A stretch of DNA of 24,702 bases, from assembly GCA_016190245.1 (NCBI GenBank), contig JACPQY010000026.1, positions 1 through 24,702 of the forward strand. The letters run 5' to 3'. Below, in pieces: positions 10,898 through 19,442 of the stretch. The notes under the pieces are model-generated. The model saw only the letters and a list, made by a program, of their open reading frames with translations, searched no databases and had not been told where the DNA came from. The DNA is from Nitrospirota bacterium. GTDB lineage: Bacteria; JACPQY01. Each line of letters opens with the position of its first letter. Position 1 is the stretch's first letter. The translations under genes and the position numbers were made by a program.

Positions 10898-12028
10898 ATG
10901 AACCAGAAACTGAAGATCATCGTGCTCGGCGGCGCGGGCGACATGGGCTCCCGCGCGGTTGAGGATCTCGCGTCCTCGGCCGATGTGAGCCGCGTGACCA
11001 TCGCGGACCGGAACACGACCGCAGCGGACAAGATCGCCGAACGCCTGCGCGGCCAACCCGCCCGGGTTGATGTGCGCGCGGTGGACGCCAACGATCATGC
11101 CGGCCTCGTGAAAGCCTTGAAGGGATACGACGTCGCCGCTTCCGCCCTCGGCCCCTTCCACATGTTCGAGGCGAAACTCGTGCACGCCGCCCTCGACGCG
11201 GGCACGGACTACGCCAGCATCTGCGATGAATGGCAGGCCGCCGAGGCGGTCATGGACAAGTTCGACAAAGTCGCGCGGAGCAAGCGGCGCACGATCCTCA
11301 CCGGCCTGGGAGCCAGCCCGGGGCTCTCCAACGTGGGCATCCGCCACCTTGCCTCCCGCCTCGACCGCGCCCGCCGGGCGGACATCTATGTCTATCAGCC
11401 GCTCGATGCCGGCGGCGGTGAGGCGGTGCTTCGCCACATGCTTTTCATCATGACGGGACACATGACGACGTGGCGAGGGGGTCGGCGGACCACGATTCGC
11501 GCGTGCAGCGAGACCCGCACCGTGGAATTCCCGCGCTTCGGGTCCCTTCGGCTCTGGAACATGGGACACGCGGAACCCGTCACCGTGCCCCGCTTCATGC
11601 CCGAGATCGAAGAGGTCAATTTCTTAATGGGCTACGGGCGGGGGTCCCAACTCATCGTCGCGCCCGCGCGGCTGGGGGTGTTTCGTTCTCCCCGGCGGGT
11701 CAATCTGACCGTGCGGCTTCTCATGGCACTCGAGCGGGCCACGCGGCCACCCCAGCCGGGCGAAGGAGCCGTCCGAATCGAGGTGACCGGAGAGAAGAAC
11801 GGCAAGACCGAGACCCACATGGTCTGTGGCACGGGCCAGATGCGCGAAGTGACCGGCATCTCCCTCTCGATCGGGACGCTCATGCTCGGCCGCGGCGAAA
11901 CCACGAACAAACGGGGCGGCGTTTTCGCCCCCGAAGGCTGCCTCGATCCCCGGCCCTTCATTCACCGCTTCCGCGCCAAGGGCCTCCAGGCCTTCGAAGA
12001 CCTCGCGATGACCAAACCCCTGGAGTGA
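10898..12028 (+). CDS. Saccharopine dehydrogenase-like NAD(P)-binding protein
   Basis: A 376-residue oxidoreductase-like protein. It opens with a Rossmann motif, VLGGAGDMGSRAVEDL (residues 9-24), followed by an acidic ADRN at the end of beta-2. The central SALGPF...AALDAGTDYASICDEW segment is typical of the saccharopine dehydrogenase NADP-binding family. The substrate is unknown; many such proteins are not lysine-pathway enzymes. It starts at ATG 10898 with AAAGGA upstream, 13 bases after the second permease, so it probably belongs to the mla transcript. Confidence 0.8.
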   Translation: MNQKLKIIVLGGAGDMGSRAVEDLASSADVSRVTIADRNTTAADKIAERLRGQPARVDVRAVDANDHAGLVKALKGYDVAASALGPFHMFEAKLVHAALDAGTDYASICDEWQAAEAVMDKFDKVARSKRRTILTGLGASPGLSNVGIRHLASRLDRARRADIYVYQPLDAGGGEAVLRHMLFIMTGHMTTWRGGRRTTIRACSETRTVEFPRFGSLRLWNMGHAEPVTVPRFMPEIEEVNFLMGYGRGSQLIVAPARLGVFRSPRRVNLTVRLLMALERATRPPQPGEGAVRIEVTGEKNGKTETHMVCGTGQMREVTGISLSIGTLMLGRGETTNKRGGVFAPEGCLDPRPFIHRFRAKGLQAFEDLAMTKPLE

Positions 12029-12059
12029 GACACGAGCTGCCGGGCCCGAAGGCCATGCC

Positions 12060-12200
12060 TGGCTCTCAGCGTCCCCCGCGCCAGGGGCGTGCCGATGGAA
12101 CCGGAGGCCGTGTCCACCTCCGCGATGCTCACGACGTTGCCAGCGGGGTCATAACCGCAGTTCAGCGCCTCGCGCCGTGAACCGAAGGAACAAGAAGTGC
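12060..12200 (-). pseudogene. Rhs/YD-repeat remnant
   Basis: Read on the minus strand, the segment encodes LNCGYDPAGNVVSIAEV (YDPAGNVV at 12153-12130). This fits one YD repeat of the Rhs/wall-associated family (YDxxGNxxxI). No start codon belongs to it and no second repeat is seen. It is a short orphan fragment at the edge of the accessory patch. Confidence 0.4.
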
Positions 12201-12205
12201 GCGGC

Positions 12206-12418
12206 TCAAACTCTGACGAAGTAAGGAATGGCGACAAAAACAGCGCCGACGATGACCAGAAGCACCCAATTCTGGATGAAGTACGGAACGACCACGAGCA
12301 CCAAACCGCAAAGCAGAGGGACGACTGCGCGCTGTTTCCTGCCGTAGACGAAAAACCCTAGCCCGATTGAGCCGAACAGTAGACCCCAAAGCAGGGAGGA
12401 GGCAGTTATGTCGGCCAA
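12206..12418 (-). CDS. Small membrane protein, 70 residues
   Basis: A short hydrophobic protein with two or three membrane segments: SLLWGLLFGSIGLGFFVYGR (9-27), VVPLLCGLVLVVVPYF (32-47) and WVLLVIVGAVFVAIPYF (51-67). It resembles a widespread small-protein family sometimes labelled amino acid transport protein, whose function is not established. The best start is a TTG at 12418, just before the first hydrophobic stretch. The open frame extends to 12658, but that part is a shadow of transposase remains. The ribosome site is weak. The ending PYFVRV matches the family ending, so it is likely full length. Confidence 0.6.
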   Translation of the reverse strand: MADITASSLLWGLLFGSIGLGFFVYGRKQRAVVPLLCGLVLVVVPYFIQNWVLLVIVGAVFVAIPYFVRV

Positions 12419-12529
12419 TCCAAGATCGCCAAAACTACTATTGGGGCAAGTTGTCAGAGGAAAGCATTTTCGTCCATGTGACGCCGCCATCAGTCCATGC
12501 CACAAGTTTACATTGTTGCCAACGTCCCC

Positions 12530-12665
12530 AAGTCCCGGGTGGCCAGGCGGGCCAGGAAGGCGTCCCCGATCGAGGCCATTCGCGGAAAATCTCCTCCCGG
12601 TCGAGCCCGCGGGCCATGACATGGTGGAGTTCCCCCGGGGCGTCGTGTCGAGGTCCACAGGGCAT
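12530..12665 (-). pseudogene. REP-associated (IS200-type, Y1) transposase fragment
   Basis: The fragment begins MPCGPRHDAPGELHHVMARG at 12665, then LDREEIF, the typical N-terminus of REP-associated tyrosine transposases. After about 35 codons the frame breaks: a one-base shift is needed to reach DAFLARLA. The HUH and catalytic tyrosine regions are absent. Upstream on the minus strand there is a TTGACA-like box in the TTGTCAACTG sequence near 12696. It is a dead remnant. Confidence 0.6.
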
Positions 12666-12861
12666 GGGCGAAACGCTACGATATTCTACCTACTTGTCAA
12701 CTGTATAGAGTTCTGGAGTTTACTGAATTTCCCTCGTAGTGAGGAGGGCAGTTGGTGATTGAGATAAGGTCCTTTCCCGCCGATGTTTTTTGGGAGGTTA
12801 TGAATCGGGGGGAAAGGAGGATTGTCCTGTGGGAGACATGGACCGTCTCCGCAAACAAGTC

Positions 12862-12886
12862 TGACCTTACCCCCAAAAACTGGTCC
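12862..12886 (+). mobile_element. Possible left end of an IS3-family element
   Basis: The sequence TGACCTTACCCCCAAAAACT (12862-12881) resembles left ends seen upstream of IS3-family orfA genes. It lies about 50 bases before the orfA ribosome site. No matching right end was found, in line with a truncated copy. Confidence 0.35.
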
Positions 12887-12938
12887 AGGGATAACCTCAC
12901 AACTGGGGGTATGATTCCCCGTGAAAGGAGCTCTGGAC

Positions 12939-13130
12939 ATGAAGAAGTCGCGATTTTCCGAGGAGCAGATTCTGGCCATCCTGAAGGAGGCGGAGGCCGG
13001 GGCGAAGATCTCGGAGCTGTGTCGCCGGCATGGGATTGCGGTGTGGACGTTTTACACGTGGAGGCGGAAGTTTCAGGGGTTGACGATCTCCGAGGCCCGG
13101 CGGCTGCGGCAGCTTGAGGAGGAGAACCGT
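12939..13130 (+). pseudogene. IS3-family transposase orfA, truncated
   Basis: Starts MKKSRFSEEQILAILKEAEA (ATG 12939, AAAGGAG 8 bases upstream). It continues through ELCRRHGIAVWTFYTWRRKF and SEARRLRQLEEENR, the helix-turn-helix part of IS3-type OrfA (about 88 residues in full). Similarity stops after residue 64 at 13130. The frame stays open to 13577 but encodes only repeat-derived sequence. No orfB follows. It is a truncated, inactive insertion sequence. Confidence 0.75.
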
Positions 13131-13599
13131 GTGTCTGGGGGACGTTGTTTCCTGGATTGCATAACGGCTGGCGACGGGCGCGCGCCGGCAAGGACCTTGG
13201 GTGTGTCTTGTCAGGCCCGGCTGCTGCCCCACGCCCTCGGCGCGCGAGTATGCGCCGGGTGCTCGGTTTCAGTGGTCCCGACGGTAATTGTCTTGGATGG
13301 CAGCACCCCTTCGGATGTCCTCGATCGGCTCGCCCCCACTCCTGGCGAGGTCGGGGGGAATGGGGTCCGGCACCCCCACCCTAGCCCTCCCCCGTCGGCC
13401 TACTCCGCCGACCCTCCTTCGCCCGCCGAAGCGGGCTTCGCGAAGGCGGGAGCAGCTTCGGCTGAGAAGGCTGGAAGAGGGAGGGGAGAATTGGGGACAG
13501 CCCATTCTCTTTCTTTCCTTCCCCCCCTTGTCCGCCGCGGCGGACTTGAGGGGGAAGGCAAGGATGGGGAGTGCTGAACGGATACAGCCTGTGCACGCG
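13131..13599. repeat. Non-coding stretch with a large palindromic repeat block (about 13360-13566)
   Basis: No gene is supported here. From 13131 the sequence GTGTCTGGGGGACGTTG abuts the broken orfA. From about 13360 lies a nested palindromic block: CACCCCCACCCTAGCCC at the left and AGGGAGGGGAGAA further on. It also holds GTCGG...CCGAC, CCGCCGAAGCGGG, and GTCCGCCGCGGCGGAC, a perfect 16-base palindrome flanked by CCCCCC and GGGGG. It resembles the blocks at 5656 and 8205. Stretches at 13160-13350 hold nothing recognisable. Confidence 0.55.
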
Positions 13600-13627
13600 T
13601 TGAAAACGAGCGCCCCTCTGCTACGAT
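13600..13627 (+). promoter_or_regulatory. Promoter of the thioesterase gene
   Basis: TTGAAA (13600-13605), a 16-base spacer and TACGAT (13622-13627). Transcription would begin about 10 bases before the ATG at 13645. Confidence 0.5.
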
Positions 13628-13644
13628 GACAGGTCCAGCCAACC

Positions 13645-14145
13645 ATGACGCAGACGGGTTCGTCCGAAGGGATCGAAGACTTCAAGACACTGTACAACGC
13701 CGATCATGCCGAGAGGCTCAAGCAAGCGGTTGTCCTCTCGCCGTTCTTCCGGCACATGGGGATACGCGTGGACGACATCGGCCCGGGCTTCATCACGTGC
13801 AGCCTGGAAGCGGGAGAACATCTGTGGGGGAGTCCGGGCCTGGTACACGGAGGGGCGGTGGCCGCGCTCGTTGATTCCGCGCTCACGCTGGCCGTCTTCC
13901 CCCTCACGGGCGGCCGCGATGCGCGAACATTGGAATACAAGATCAACTACCTAGGCAAAGTCGAGAAGGGCCGTTGCACGGCCACCGCGCGGGTCCGTTC
14001 GCTGAAGCAACAGGTGGCCGTCGCGCTGGTGGAAGTCACGAACGACGGCCGAACCGTCGCGTCCGCCCAAGGCACCGTTTTCATCCGGGAGGCACGCGCG
14101 AGGCGCTACGCCAATCAGGTCCCTCCGACCCCCACCGGCTCGTGA
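13645..14145 (+). CDS. PaaI-like hotdog-fold thioesterase
   Basis: A 166-residue acyl-CoA thioesterase of the hotdog fold. The conserved GLVHGGAVAALVDSAL (65-80) holds the HGG turn and Asp77, the usual catalytic acid region. This is followed by LEYKINYLGKVEKG and a final beta strand with ASAQGTVFI. It would hydrolyse an acyl- or aryl-CoA ester; the substrate is unknown. The N-terminal 30 residues precede the core, as in many PaaI relatives. The gene has its own promoter, and the radical SAM gene downstream has a separate one. Confidence 0.85.
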   Translation: MTQTGSSEGIEDFKTLYNADHAERLKQAVVLSPFFRHMGIRVDDIGPGFITCSLEAGEHLWGSPGLVHGGAVAALVDSALTLAVFPLTGGRDARTLEYKINYLGKVEKGRCTATARVRSLKQQVAVALVEVTNDGRTVASAQGTVFIREARARRYANQVPPTPTGS

Positions 14146-14157
14146 ACTCCTCGGTGC

Positions 14158-14186
14158 TTGATCAGGACCTGCGCCGCGCGTATGAT
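14158..14186 (+). promoter_or_regulatory. Promoter upstream of the radical SAM gene
   Basis: TTGATC (14158-14163), a 17-base spacer and TATGAT (14181-14186). An ATG lies 6 bases after the -10 box at 14193, the start of a 12-codon leader ORF. Confidence 0.6.
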
Positions 14187-14192
14187 CCCCCG

Positions 14193-14231
14193 ATGATCCC
14201 CCACCGGGAGGCGCGGGCGTTCGCCTGCTGA
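14193..14231 (+). CDS. Possible 12-residue leader peptide
   Basis: The frame MIPHREARAFAC begins 6 bases after a good -10 box, so it could be translated from a leaderless transcript. It stops 5 bases before the radical SAM ATG, which has no convincing ribosome site of its own. Reinitiation after this short ORF could drive translation of the enzyme. There is no similarity evidence; the call rests on position only. Confidence 0.3.
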   Translation: MIPHREARAFAC

Positions 14232-14236
14232 GCGTC

Positions 14237-15133
14237 ATGTACGAAGGCACACCAGGAGAAACCATCCGCTCGGCGATCCTCGACGTGACGGACCGCTGCA
14301 ATCTGCGCTGCAAGCATTGCTTCTACTACCGCGAAGAACACGACTCGCAGGAACTCCCCGCGGACGAGCTCTTGGCCGGACTCCGCACGCTCCGGGAGCG
14401 CCACGATATCCAGGCGATGGCGTGGTGCGGCGGCGAGCCGCTCTACCGCCGCGAGGTAATCGAGGAAGGCTGCTCCATCTTCCCGATGAACTGGCTCTTC
14501 TCGAACGGCACCATGCCGCTCCCCGACATCCCCAACCTCATGCTCTTCGTTTCGGTGGAAGGTCCCAAGGAAATCCACGACCGCATCCGCGGCCGCGGCA
14601 CCTACGATCGGATCATGGACACCGTCTCCAAACGCCCCTCCGGCAAGCCGGTCGTCTTCCTTCCCACGTTCCACAAGCTCAACTCACCCTTCCTCGAACA
14701 GACCGTGGCTCAGCTCTCGCGCATCCCCAACACCTTCATGGGCGTCGAGTTCTTCACGCCCCTCAAGGCGTATCAACACATCAAGGGGTACCCCCACACG
14801 GAACTCCAGAAGACCGACCTTGACCTCACGTGGGAAGAGCGCGACGCCATCATTGACCAACTGGTTCGGCTCAAGGTGGAGTACCCCGGCTTCATCGTCT
14901 TTCGCGATCGCGTGCTGGAACTGATGAGATCCGATGCCGCACCGGCCTGCATCGAACGCTGCAACATGCCACGCCGATGCCTCACGCTGGACGTGAAGCT
15001 CAACCGCAAGCAACCCTGCGTGCTCGGCAAGGATGTGGACTGTTCGAAGTGCGGCTGCATCTTCCCCTATGAGCAGCAGGCGCGCGCCGAGGACAAGGCA
15101 GGAGGAAAAGAGACCCGGCCGCTGTTTCTCTGA
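14237..15133 (+). CDS. Radical SAM protein with Cys-rich C-terminus
   Basis: A 298-residue enzyme that uses a [4Fe-4S] cluster to cleave S-adenosylmethionine. The cluster motif CNLRCKHC (Cys21, 25, 28) follows ILDVTDR. GGEP (65-68) and FVSVEGPKEIHDRIRG complete the core. The C-terminal 65 residues hold seven cysteines (238, 242, 248, 261, 269, 272, 274), enough for an auxiliary iron-sulfur cluster like those of SPASM or twitch domains, but the spacing is not a textbook SPASM. The substrate is unknown, and no short peptide gene with an obvious precursor look lies downstream. It is the first in-frame ATG after the upstream stop. Confidence 0.85.
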   Translation: MYEGTPGETIRSAILDVTDRCNLRCKHCFYYREEHDSQELPADELLAGLRTLRERHDIQAMAWCGGEPLYRREVIEEGCSIFPMNWLFSNGTMPLPDIPNLMLFVSVEGPKEIHDRIRGRGTYDRIMDTVSKRPSGKPVVFLPTFHKLNSPFLEQTVAQLSRIPNTFMGVEFFTPLKAYQHIKGYPHTELQKTDLDLTWEERDAIIDQLVRLKVEYPGFIVFRDRVLELMRSDAAPACIERCNMPRRCLTLDVKLNRKQPCVLGKDVDCSKCGCIFPYEQQARAEDKAGGKETRPLFL

Positions 15134-15152
15134 CGACCTCCCACGCCGGGCT

Positions 15153-15189
15153 GCCCCGAGGGGCCTCCGGGGGTGATGGGGTTTCACCC
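15153..15189 (+). terminator. Two small hairpins after the radical SAM gene
   Basis: GCCCC-GA-GGGGC (15153-15164) and GGGTGA-N7-TCACCC (15171-15189) lie 20-55 bases after the stop. There is no T run, so termination is only possible. Confidence 0.3.
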
Positions 15190-15341
15190 TCTCCGTGGAT
15201 GCATCTCCCTGCCCGTGCCGAGCTTGCTCTGGTCGTTGAAGTCGACCTGCTCGATGACGCCCTCGAGTTCGATGGCAATCGCCGAGGCTGGGCCTCTTCT
15301 GCCTAGCCGGTAGGGCATAAGCTTCAGTCTGGCTGTTTATA

Positions 15342-15370
15342 TTGACTATCTACCATACTAATGCTAGACT
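15342..15370 (+). promoter_or_regulatory. Promoter of the toxin-antitoxin pair, within an inverted repeat
   Basis: TTGACT (15342-15347), a 17-base spacer and TAGACT (15365-15370). The inverted repeat TCAGTCT (15324-15330) / AGACTGA (15366-15372) brackets the promoter and covers the -10 box, as expected for an autoregulatory operator. The GTG start at 15378 is 7 bases beyond the -10 box. Confidence 0.55.
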
Positions 15371-15377
15371 GAGAGCA

Positions 15378-15662
15378 GTGGATGTCAGCTCCGGTGACTT
15401 CATTTGGGACATCGAGAAGGAGCTGGCCAATATCGAGAAACATGGTATCGGGTTCGCGGCGGCCGCGCAGGCCTTCGCAGACCCAAACAGGAAGATCTAT
15501 GCCGATTCCAAACACCGTGCAACCGAGCCACGACTCTTCTGCATGGGGAAGGTCGAGGGAAGGGTGGTGACCGTGAGATTTGTCTATCGACAAGGAAAGA
15601 TCAGGATTTTCGGCGCGGGCTATTGGAGAAAGGGGGCGCACTACTATGGGAAAAAGGATTGA
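15378..15662 (+). CDS. brnT: BrnT-like ribonuclease toxin
   Basis: A 94-residue protein of the BrnT family, a RelE-fold RNase that is the toxin of type II BrnT-BrnA systems. It shows the family opening FIWDIEKELANIEKHGIGF, then AFADPNRKIYADSKHRATEPRLFCMG, a VVTVRFVY strand and IRIFGAGYWRKGAHYYG near the end. GTG 15378 is chosen because the alternative TTG at 15342 is the -35 box, and the GTG gives the usual BrnT length. The transcript is then nearly leaderless. It overlaps the antitoxin gene by 17 bases. The toxin-first order is normal for this family. Confidence 0.8.
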   Translation: MDVSSGDFIWDIEKELANIEKHGIGFAAAAQAFADPNRKIYADSKHRATEPRLFCMGKVEGRVVTVRFVYRQGKIRIFGAGYWRKGAHYYGKKD

Positions 15663-15879
15663 GTCGGAAATGCCCGTTGGGAGACTGGTCCGAGTGAAGG
15701 ATTTCCTTCCGCCCCCGAGCGAGCTGGCTGCACCACGAGATGAAGTGAAGGTCACTCTGGCTTTGTCACGACGAAGCATTGCGTTCTTCAAGGCACAGGC
15801 CCGGCGCAACCACACGAAGTACCAGCGAATGATTCGCGAACTCGTGGACCGGTACGCGTCACACTACCTCACCAAGTAG
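15646..15879 (+). CDS. brnA: CopG/BrnA-like antitoxin
   Basis: A 77-residue protein with a C-terminal ribbon-helix-helix-like segment: EVKVTLALSRRSIAFFKAQ, then YQRMIRELVDRYASHY. Such antitoxins bind the toxin through the N-terminal part and the operator through the RHH fold. The ATG at 15646 lies inside the toxin gene with GAAAGGGGG about 9 bases upstream. It is shorter than some BrnA proteins, so the general label CopG-type antitoxin is safer than a strict BrnA assignment. An attC-like palindrome begins about 20 bases after the stop. Confidence 0.75.
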   Translation: MGKRIESEMPVGRLVRVKDFLPPPSELAAPRDEVKVTLALSRRSIAFFKAQARRNHTKYQRMIRELVDRYASHYLTK

Positions 15880-15899
15880 TCCACCTTCCCGCTACCAAA

Positions 15900-15966
15900 A
15901 AGCGCTAACGCTCAGCATCAGCGGCGGCGCGCAGTGCCGACCGCTGCATGCTGCTGTTGGGCGCTT
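15900..15966. other. attC-like folded site (possible integron recombination site)
   Basis: A 67-base imperfect palindrome with the layout of an attC site. Outer arms are AAGCGC/GCGCTT. Core-like ends are CGCTAAC (15903-15909) and GTTGGGC (15956-15962; a perfect GTTRRRY). Inner arms are AGCAT/ATGCT and CAGCGG/CCGCTG with an extra C at 15947 in one arm, and the end hairpin is CGGC-N7-GCCG. Seen from the minus strand, GCCCAAC is a perfect RYYYAAC and the other core is imperfect. It lies between convergent genes. A bidirectional terminator hairpin is the alternative, but there are no T runs. Orientation is unclear. Confidence 0.4.
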
Positions 15967-15974
15967 CCGCGGAT

Positions 15975-16214
15975 TCACGCAACCCCCTCATTGGGCAATT
16001 CTGTTGATTGTGTTGCTGTCCTCAGATCGAGAGTCTCGATCTCCTCCAGATCGCCGAGGCGATCTCGCCAGGCGGTGGGCAAGATCATGTGTGCGGCTCC
16101 CGTGTCCACGAGGGCATCACACCGCAGGCTCTTCACTGGGTCGGCCAGATTGTCGATCTTGACTGAGCCAGTAATCCTTCCCAATGTGATCACCTCCGGC
16201 AGAGAGAATACCAC
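15975..16214 (-). pseudogene. Truncated retropepsin-like aspartic protease
   Basis: A 79-residue frame with GSVKIDNLADP, then CDALVDTGAAHMILPTAW, holding the catalytic DTG of clan AA single-domain aspartic proteases. Bacterial relatives usually run to about 120-140 residues. Here similarity ends near LRTATQ, and the last ~10 residues (STELPNEGVA) look unrelated. The GTG at 16214 has a fair ribosome site (GGAAAG). The stop is 8 bases from the attC-like palindrome. Dimeric retropepsins need the missing flap and second half, so it is probably inactive. Confidence 0.55.
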
Positions 16215-16263
16215 CGCTTTCCTGCAGTCACCATCCTTGTTGCTGCGTGTCGTCGAGAAATCT

Positions 16264-17703
16264 TCAGCCCCCCGGCGGAGGCACCCAGCCGCCGAAGGCC
16301 TCCTCGAGCCGCAACGCCGTGCCGATGGTGAGGTGGTCCTGCCCGGTGCCGCCGATCACCTGAACACCGAGAGGCAGGCCCTGCGCGTTCAGCCCCAGCG
16401 GGACCTGGGTGGATGGAAGTTCCATCACGTTGATGATGGCCGTGTAGGCCCAGCGGATGGGCGGCCAGAGGGGCCGGTTGTGCCGCGGGGCCGGCTCGGG
16501 ATAGGAGGGGTAGAGCATCACGGCGTTCTTTCCGAGTCGCGAGAGCAGTTCTTGCCGCAGCGCCCTCCCCTTCTCAACCGCGCGCCGCGCCCGTTTTTCG
16601 AGCCCCTGCGGCAGCTTCTCGAGGAGCGCCAGACCGATCGCGGGGAACGTATGCTCCGATCTCCCCAACATCCACTTCAACAGCTCCCACCCCGCGCGAA
16701 CAGGTGTCCCGTTCCCCAAAAGCTCGCTGAACGTCGGCCCGCCCGCCGCACTCATCATGGCGGCCCAGATCTCGATGGAGTCCCTCAAACCATCAAGCTT
16801 CAAGGTCTCAACCCGCGCCCCCTGCCCCGCCAGCCACCGCGCACATTTTTCCTGCGCCTCGCGAAGATCGTCGGACACCGACGCGGCGCCGTTCTCCGGC
16901 ACATCCAGGACCCTCAGCCCGCGCAGTTTGACCTTGGTCGGGTCGCCGAATCGAAAGCGTCTCGTATAGGGATCGATCCCGTCGGGTCCGGCCAGGATAC
17001 GCAGGAGCGGCATGAGATCCCCGGCGCGGCGGGCCAGGGGCCCGACGCAGTTGTACCGGCGGATGTCGTTTTCCGGCTCCGGGTAGTGCCCCGTGCTCGG
17101 CACCGCCGTCCCCGTGGGCTTGTGACCGAATACGCCGTTGAAGAAGGCGGGCATCCGGATGGAACCGCCCACATCCGCACCGAGGCCGAACGGCGAACCG
17201 CCCGCACCGATGATCGCGCCCTCCCCTCCCGAGCTCCCGCCGGCGATTCTCCCTGGATCGTACGGGTTCCGCGTGCGGCCGTACACCTTGTTGTTCGATT
17301 CCATCCACATGCACAACTCGGAGAGATTGGTCAGGCCGAGAGGAATCGCGCCAGCGTGCCGCAGCCGCGCAACGGTGGGGCAATCCGCGCTTGCCGGACG
17401 CCCCTTGCGGGCCACGAGACCCGAGGTCTGGGGCATCCCCGCGAACGCAAAGCACTCCTTGATCGTGCACGGCACGCCGAAAAACGGCGGAAGGGAATCC
17501 CGGTCGCGCCTGCCCAGTCTCCGATCCGCCCGCCCCGCCTCCGTCCGCGCCTGCTCGAACCGATCCACCACCACGGCGTTGATTTTCGGATTGACCTCCT
17601 CGATCCGCCGGATGTGCGCCTCGACGACCTCCGACGAGCTCACCTTGCGCCGCCGGATGAGGTCGGCCAGTTCGCGTCCGGAGCACACAAGCAGAGATTT
17701 CAT
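16264..17703 (-). CDS. Amidase signature family hydrolase
   Basis: A 479-residue amidase with the complete Ser-Ser-Lys triad: Lys82 (CTIKE), Ser157 in GGSSGGEG and nucleophile Ser181 in GGSIRMP. The 75- and 24-residue spacings equal those of fatty acid amide hydrolase (Lys142-Ser217-Ser241). Glu after SSGG also fits the FAAH side rather than GatA, and no gatB or gatC is nearby. It cleaves an amide bond; the substrate is not known. The start ATG overlaps the msbA stop by 4 bases (ATGA), making it the last gene of the lipid A operon. Confidence 0.85.
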   Translation of the reverse strand: MKSLLVCSGRELADLIRRRKVSSSEVVEAHIRRIEEVNPKINAVVVDRFEQARTEAGRADRRLGRRDRDSLPPFFGVPCTIKECFAFAGMPQTSGLVARKGRPASADCPTVARLRHAGAIPLGLTNLSELCMWMESNNKVYGRTRNPYDPGRIAGGSSGGEGAIIGAGGSPFGLGADVGGSIRMPAFFNGVFGHKPTGTAVPSTGHYPEPENDIRRYNCVGPLARRAGDLMPLLRILAGPDGIDPYTRRFRFGDPTKVKLRGLRVLDVPENGAASVSDDLREAQEKCARWLAGQGARVETLKLDGLRDSIEIWAAMMSAAGGPTFSELLGNGTPVRAGWELLKWMLGRSEHTFPAIGLALLEKLPQGLEKRARRAVEKGRALRQELLSRLGKNAVMLYPSYPEPAPRHNRPLWPPIRWAYTAIINVMELPSTQVPLGLNAQGLPLGVQVIGGTGQDHLTIGTALRLEEAFGGWVPPPGG

Positions 17704-19442
17704 GCCGTCACCAATTTCAAACGCTCATCTTCCGCCATCTGTGCGCGATAGAGCCGGTAGTAGTCTCCCTGCCGGTGCATCAACTCCTCGTGCGTTCCGC
17801 TTTCGATGATCTCGCCGCGATCCAGAACCACGATCCGGTCCACCCGCCGGAGAGCATAGAGCCTATGTGCGATCACGACAACCGTCCGCCCTTCGAAGAG
17901 GGGGATCATCATGCGTTGGATCTCGAGTTCGGACTCCGGATCCACGGACGATGTTGCCTCATCCAGAACGAGAATAGGTGCGTTCTTGAGGAGGGCCCGG
18001 GCGATCGCGATGCGTTGCCGCTCCCCCCCCGAGAGCCGACCGCCCCTCTCCCCGATCACGGTGTCGTAGCCGGCCGGAAGCCTTTCGACGAACTCGTCGG
18101 CCCGCGCCGCTCGAATCGCGGTTTGGACCTCCTCACGCGTCCGGTCCGGGCTGCCGTATGTCGCGTTCCTCCAGACCGTGTCGTTGAACAGGAAAGTCTC
18201 CTGCGTCACGAGGGCCGCAAGACCTCGGAGCGAGGCGAACGAGAGATCGCGTAGATCCACGCCGTCTAGGAGGATCCGGCCAGCCGAAGGATCGTAGAAC
18301 CGCAGGAGCAGGCTGGCCACGGTGGTTTTTCCCCCACCGCTCGGTCCAACGAGCGCGATCACTTCACCTCGCCGGATGGTCAGGCCAAAATCCCGGAGCA
18401 CCCACTCGTCCCCGTACCGGAACGAGACTTTCTCAAACGCGAGGTCCCGCTCGAAGGTGAGTTTGGAGACCGGGGCAGGACGTTCGGCGATCTCGGGAGC
18501 GAGCGAGAGAACCCCTCTCAATCGCTCGGCGGCGGCCAGGGCGGGCGGGAAGACGGTGTTGAGGCGGCTCGCCTTCTTGAGCGGCTGGTAGATAAGCGCG
18601 AGGGCCGTCAGGCAGGACGAGAAGGCCCCCGCGGTGGTTTCGCCACCGATCACCCGCCACGCGCCGTATGCCAAAGCGAGGACGAAACTGAGAGTGCCCA
18701 ACATCTCGGCCATCGGCGACGTGAGGGCGCCAACACGCAGGGCGCGCACCCCCGCCTGGTAGACCTCGCGATTCTTCCCGCGGAAGCGTTCCTCCTCGTA
18801 GCGCTCGGTCCCGAATGCCTTCACCACGCGGATCCCTGCCAACACCTCCTCGAGCAGGCCCAACAGTTCTCCCATCTTGCGCTGCACCACCCCGCTGCGC
18901 GCTTTCACGCGGCGTGCCGCCACGAAGAGGCCGACACCGACCACCGGGAAGACCACGAGAGAGAACGCCGTGATCCGCCAGTCCTGCCAGAACGCGACCA
19001 GGAGGAGCCACAGCATCGTCAGAGGCGAACCGATCAGGTCAACCAGCGCAGGCACCACGCGCTCGATGAGGGCCACGTCATAGCTCACCTTGGACACGAG
19101 ATCACCCGACAGGCTGCGATCGTGGAAGCTCATGGAGGCGCGCTGGTACGAACGGGCAAGGTCGGTCCGGACGTCTGCGACGAGGCGCTGTCCCGTCCGG
19201 TTCAGGGTGAAGGTGTAGTAGTAGCCCAGCGCGGCCTTCAGAACGGCCAGCCCAACCAAGGTTCCGGCAATGAAGTAGAGAGAGGGCAGATTGCGCTCGA
19301 TCAGCACGCCGTCCATGAACGGACGGACCAGCCACGCCATCACCCCCGGGACCGGTGAGATGACCACCGCTGCCAGCAGCGCGAGCAGCACGCGTGAGAG
19401 GTAAGGCCGCCCGTATCCGACCAGCCAACGGACGTCGTTCAC
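17700..19442 (-). CDS. msbA: MsbA-type lipid A exporter (ABC transporter)
   Basis: A 580-residue half-transporter that would flip lipid A-core across the inner membrane. The N-terminal six-helix domain (about 15-320) is followed by an ATPase domain with Walker A GPSGGGKT (366-373), signature LSGGERQR (470-477), Walker B ILVLDEATSSVD (490-501) and switch His526. Placement directly after lpxB (GTGA overlap, GTG start) supports MsbA over another lipid or drug exporter. The usual following genes (waaA, lpxK) are replaced by an amidase. Confidence 0.88.
   Translation of the reverse strand: MNDVRWLVGYGRPYLSRVLLALLAAVVISPVPGVMAWLVRPFMDGVLIERNLPSLYFIAGTLVGLAVLKAALGYYYTFTLNRTGQRLVADVRTDLARSYQRASMSFHDRSLSGDLVSKVSYDVALIERVVPALVDLIGSPLTMLWLLLVAFWQDWRITAFSLVVFPVVGVGLFVAARRVKARSGVVQRKMGELLGLLEEVLAGIRVVKAFGTERYEEERFRGKNREVYQAGVRALRVGALTSPMAEMLGTLSFVLALAYGAWRVIGGETTAGAFSSCLTALALIYQPLKKASRLNTVFPPALAAAERLRGVLSLAPEIAERPAPVSKLTFERDLAFEKVSFRYGDEWVLRDFGLTIRRGEVIALVGPSGGGKTTVASLLLRFYDPSAGRILLDGVDLRDLSFASLRGLAALVTQETFLFNDTVWRNATYGSPDRTREEVQTAIRAARADEFVERLPAGYDTVIGERGGRLSGGERQRIAIARALLKNAPILVLDEATSSVDPESELEIQRMMIPLFEGRTVVVIAHRLYALRRVDRIVVLDRGEIIESGTHEELMHRQGDYYRLYRAQMAEDERLKLVTA

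Follow-up and report, generated by a model that had tools for sequence, protein, structure and literature searches.

An isolated attC site beside a truncated retropepsin-like gene on a Nitrospirota contig

An imperfect palindrome with attC-like cores (15901-15967) lies between a BrnT/BrnA toxin-antitoxin pair and a truncated gene in the window, which is the whole 24,702-nucleotide contig C12 (24.7 kb) of a draft genome totalling 3.29 Mb in 86 contigs. This raises the question whether the hairpin is a genuine integron recombination site and, if so, which neighbour occupies its cassette position and how the site came to lie there.

Identity and strand of the attC site

The palindrome, of which the attC core spans 15903-15962, was divided as follows.

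15903..15962, minus strand: attC site core, R'' to R' (match of model R1 at 15904-15962, minus)
15956..15962, minus strand: R'' core GCCCAAC, a perfect RYYYAAC (from the sequence; aligned to the start of the model)
15903..15909, minus strand: R' core GTTAGCG, an imperfect GTTRRRY (from the sequence)
15913..15953, plus strand: inner stem and tip, with L boxes, spacer and tip (from the folds)

As originally predicted, one core is perfect (R'') and the other imperfect, R' departing from GTTRRRY in its final two bases. Exchange in integron recombination takes place at G|TT, and by this general rule the exchange point would be expected between G15909 and T15908 of the R' core. The inner arms pair as CAGCAT/ATGCTG, CAGCGG/CCGCTG and CGGC/GCCG, followed by a 7-base tip. 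The extra bases predicted for the inner arms are present as two unpaired bases, A15940 and C15947 (plus strand), both on one side, in the arm adjoining R''. The site thus shows the features of an attC hairpin: one imperfect stem-loop that has an inner L stem and, on its R'' side, extra-helical bases. Folded as single-stranded DNA, the plus strand reaches -25.7 kcal/mol (z -3.25), equalled by 2 of 200 shuffles; the minus-strand fold is also better than shuffles (z -2.60).

Scanning 84,980 species genomes with a degenerate attC pattern derived from sites of this genome retrieved 83 stretches from many phyla. A covariance model, R1, was built in this analysis (it is not the IntegronFinder model) from 66 aligned attC sites, i.e. 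65 pattern matches and the aadA1 attC of plasmid R100, leaving the window site out of the training. R1 scores the site at 47.7 bits on the minus strand (15904-15962) versus 12.6 bits on the plus strand, with an E-value of 2.3e-7 over the whole 3.29 Mb genome, although its training pattern was modelled on attC sites of the same general type and biases it toward that subfamily. The covariance-model search that the original prediction proposed as a check hence gives a significant match on one strand. The match to the other attC sites spans all 60 positions, cores included. R1 also detects more divergent sites, both on C83 and close to the integrases of genomes G026 and G058. A search of the window against Rfam at gathering thresholds gave no match. 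The hairpin is a genuine attC-type site.

In the R100 reference, the attC follows the aadA1 gene on the top strand and has its extra bases in the left arm. In the window site, the extra bases are in the left arm of the minus strand, in agreement with the strand preferred by the model. Because of these extra-helical bases and the model score, the top strand of the attC is the minus strand of the window, and the plus strand was ruled out on the same two grounds.

The site is 82% identical to a C78 attC of the same genome over its length, while the closest attC sites outside the genome are 85-88% identical and found in unrelated bacteria; near-identical sites occur in Nitrospira, Planctomycetota and a Klebsiella MAG.

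The gene in the cassette position

The following features flank the site.

15342..15370, plus strand: promoter-like site of the toxin-antitoxin pair, TTGACT-17-TAGACT
15378..15662, plus strand: BrnT-type toxin gene (PF04365, E 4.9e-20)
15646..15879, plus strand: BrnA-like antitoxin gene (PF14384, E 0.006, below cut-off; assigned on position and overlap with brnT)
15975..16184, minus strand: truncated retropepsin-like (clan AA aspartic protease) ORF in the cassette position (Asp_protease_2, E 7.7e-4, below curated cut-off)

On the R'' side, the minus-strand ORF 15975-16184 stops 12 nt before R'', within the spread seen at other sites. Cassette geometry was counted at 62 reference attC sites with ORFs of at least 80 codons: 45 of the 62 have a top-strand ORF ending at the R'' side, versus 21 of the 62 with an ORF ending at the other side, the former count being inflated by 22 stops that fall inside the core, as the TAA of TAAC. 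Homology of the protease ORF is confined to 16008-16184, with GGAGGTGATC preceding its TTG start. It shows 51% identity to residues 1-59 of a 128-residue homologue, after which the homology ends and an unrelated ten-residue tail follows. No convincing second copy of the fragment was found elsewhere in the genome, and a search of the plasmid collection with the attC and protease region gave no match.

The original prediction took the BrnTA pair, with its plus-strand genes and the attC downstream, as the cassette closed by this site. BrnT cassettes do occur in the C78 integron of the same genome and beside attC sites of other bacteria, and the proposed spacing of about 20 bases holds, as the antitoxin stop (ending at 15879) lies 23 nt from the attC; that end, however, is the outer R' end, whereas a cassette gene should stop at R''. 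Since the top strand is minus, as both the strand scores and the extra-helical bases indicate, the pair lies beyond R', which is the wrong side for a cassette, and points in the opposite direction, and the BrnT cassettes checked on C78, L105, L084 and L139 all run in the same direction as their own attC. A reversed toxin-antitoxin cassette in a minus-strand array would need a further attC below 15378; a candidate at 15301-15369 scored 9.7 bits, matched an R box only, overlapped the promoter and was taken as chance. A BrnTA cassette at this site is thus considered highly unlikely. Even less probable is a mere resemblance to attC, the hairpin being an ordinary intrinsic terminator or some other stem-loop between convergent genes. 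The minus strand does form a 9-pair hairpin (15923-15903) followed by CTTTTT, but shuffled sequences do not contain clearly fewer terminator-like matches (mean 1.1 versus 2 found), the attC match covers the cores along with the rest of the site, and sites of the same type adjoin intI in the same genome. The truncated retropepsin-like gene, not BrnTA, occupies the cassette position of the attC, and the BrnTA pair is an independent neighbour.

Isolation of the site and integrons elsewhere in the genome

The distances between the attC and the contig ends, 8.7 and 15.9 kb, show that it is not part of an array cut by the assembly. With filters off, R1 found no second attC in 11900-17900 except the 9.7-bit match; a genome search with TIGR02249 gave no integrase match on C12, with weaker matches on other contigs. 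The whole 24.7 kb contig carries one attC matched by R1 and no nearby intI, in line with the original view of a stray or decayed site in an integrase-free window. Such a single attC lacking an integron-integrase is known as a SALIN; 115 orphan sites were described in 41 Shewanella genomes (PMC9229058). The window shares with these the one attC, the absence of intI and a second attC from the contig, and an ORF at the R'' side. It differs in that its ORF is truncated, no upstream boundary was found, and the comparison covers a draft genome and a single family relative. IntegronFinder 2.0 leaves single attC sites to the user owing to false positives (PMC9024848).

Further attC sites and intI, proposed as a second check, are present on other contigs. 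TIGR02249 identified two full integron integrases above the curated cut-off, with 394 and 392 bits (C31:2189-3127 and C78 20.8-21.7 kb). C78 has the classical layout, in which intI is divergent from the three attC sites that lie upstream of it. Its cassettes encode a TIGR02391 (Ymh) protein, a MazF/PemK-like toxin with an RHH-type partner, and a BrnT pair; the toxin-antitoxin cassettes are forward-oriented, each with its own attC. One attC of this array also has a non-consensus R' (GTTCGCC). Relative to the IntI of C31, the 431-aa IntI of this integron (L013, C78:16.8-21.8 kb) has about 17 additional residues following KGDKD. C31 carries one attC, also classical and divergent from intI, and the cassette beside this second IntI (L014:796-1689) is an Mrr-type restriction endonuclease gene. 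A decayed integron on C83 (L016, C83:14.4-15.5 kb) retains one clear and one weak attC and an apparently internally deleted intI.

The window site resembles the attC sites of C78 and C31 in length class, cores, stems and extra-helical bases; unlike it, these lie next to intI, in arrays whose cassette genes are intact. Likewise, it shares its layout and strand asymmetry with the aadA1 attC of R100, which, in contrast, belongs to a class 1 integron, lies next to intI1 and is preceded by an intact cassette gene. Among 60 genomes searched, R1 matched at E<=0.01 in 16, 13 of which have no IntI above the cut-off. Several of the matches are isolated sites with good cores, and at some an ORF stops at R''. 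G001, a genome of the same family in which a full IntI is absent, carries five isolated attC-like sites (L186-L190), each on a different contig.

Locus history and significance

The attC is part of a patchwork between two chromosomal genes.

10898-12028, plus strand: saccharopine-dehydrogenase-like gene
12029..16263, no strand: 4.2 kb patchwork between the two genes
16264-17703, minus strand: amidase gene

Besides BrnTA, the attC and the protease remnant, the patchwork contains a transposase remnant, a thioesterase gene and a radical SAM gene. In the only other family member compared, G001, the saccharopine-dehydrogenase-like gene lies directly next to the amidase gene, convergent with it and about 50 bp away; this gap (L061:7301-7351) is a perfect inverted repeat, AATCGGTGACAGTATACT..AGTATACTGTCACCGATT. 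The transposase remnant in the window (12862-13577) is a truncated HTH_Tnp_1 gene, and the 60 bases directly before it are identical to C78:384-443.

Most probably, the attC is an isolated copy (SALIN) that marks the 3' end of a decayed single gene cassette. Off-array activity of IntI or the rearrangement of an older array would have brought the cassette into the patchwork, and its 5' boundary would since have been lost. The cassette position now holds only the first half of the retropepsin-like gene, joined to a short tail. The folded bottom (plus) strand is predicted to be what IntI would bind and cut, at G|TT (15909/15908), and the site could remain a substrate in trans for the two IntI encoded elsewhere. 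Points against this explanation are the imperfect R' core, the tuning of R1 to a subfamily, and G001 being the sole family relative.

No upstream GTTRRRY boundary was found between the attC and the amidase gene, and the only other GTT upstream of the protease remnant, at 15983, is a poor core (GTTGCGT). Cassette insertion by IntI is therefore only a putative origin of the locus, and a deletion joining an old cassette end to the protease gene may explain it instead. As a special case of the decayed-cassette explanation, IntI might have inserted one cassette at a non-classical attG genomic site, with only its 5' half decaying later, a route described in work cited in PMC12901181 and PMC11023631. 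IntI is encoded in the genome and isolated attC sites are scattered over 13 of the 60 searched genomes without a full IntI, but no recognisable cassette bounded by a pair of G|TT sites was found, nor a close relative with an empty site at the nucleotide level. Such an attG insertion is possible, though rather doubtful.

The retained explanation, a decayed single cassette, makes this attC a good example of an already known type, ordinary in kind and mildly useful. A site noticed by eye in raw sequence proved real, and its strand asymmetry determines which neighbour counts as the cassette. Orphan attC sites record earlier movement of cassettes off-array and could themselves be mobilised in trans; their presence in a lineage with and without IntI offers a small test set for off-array insertion. 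Tentatively, IntI may scatter isolated attC sites off-array through the chromosomes of this poorly sampled lineage, where they would outlast intI, as in G001. The R' half of the window attC, a terminator-like hairpin (15903-15923, minus strand) with its CTTTTT, may also stop transcription arriving from the amidase side.
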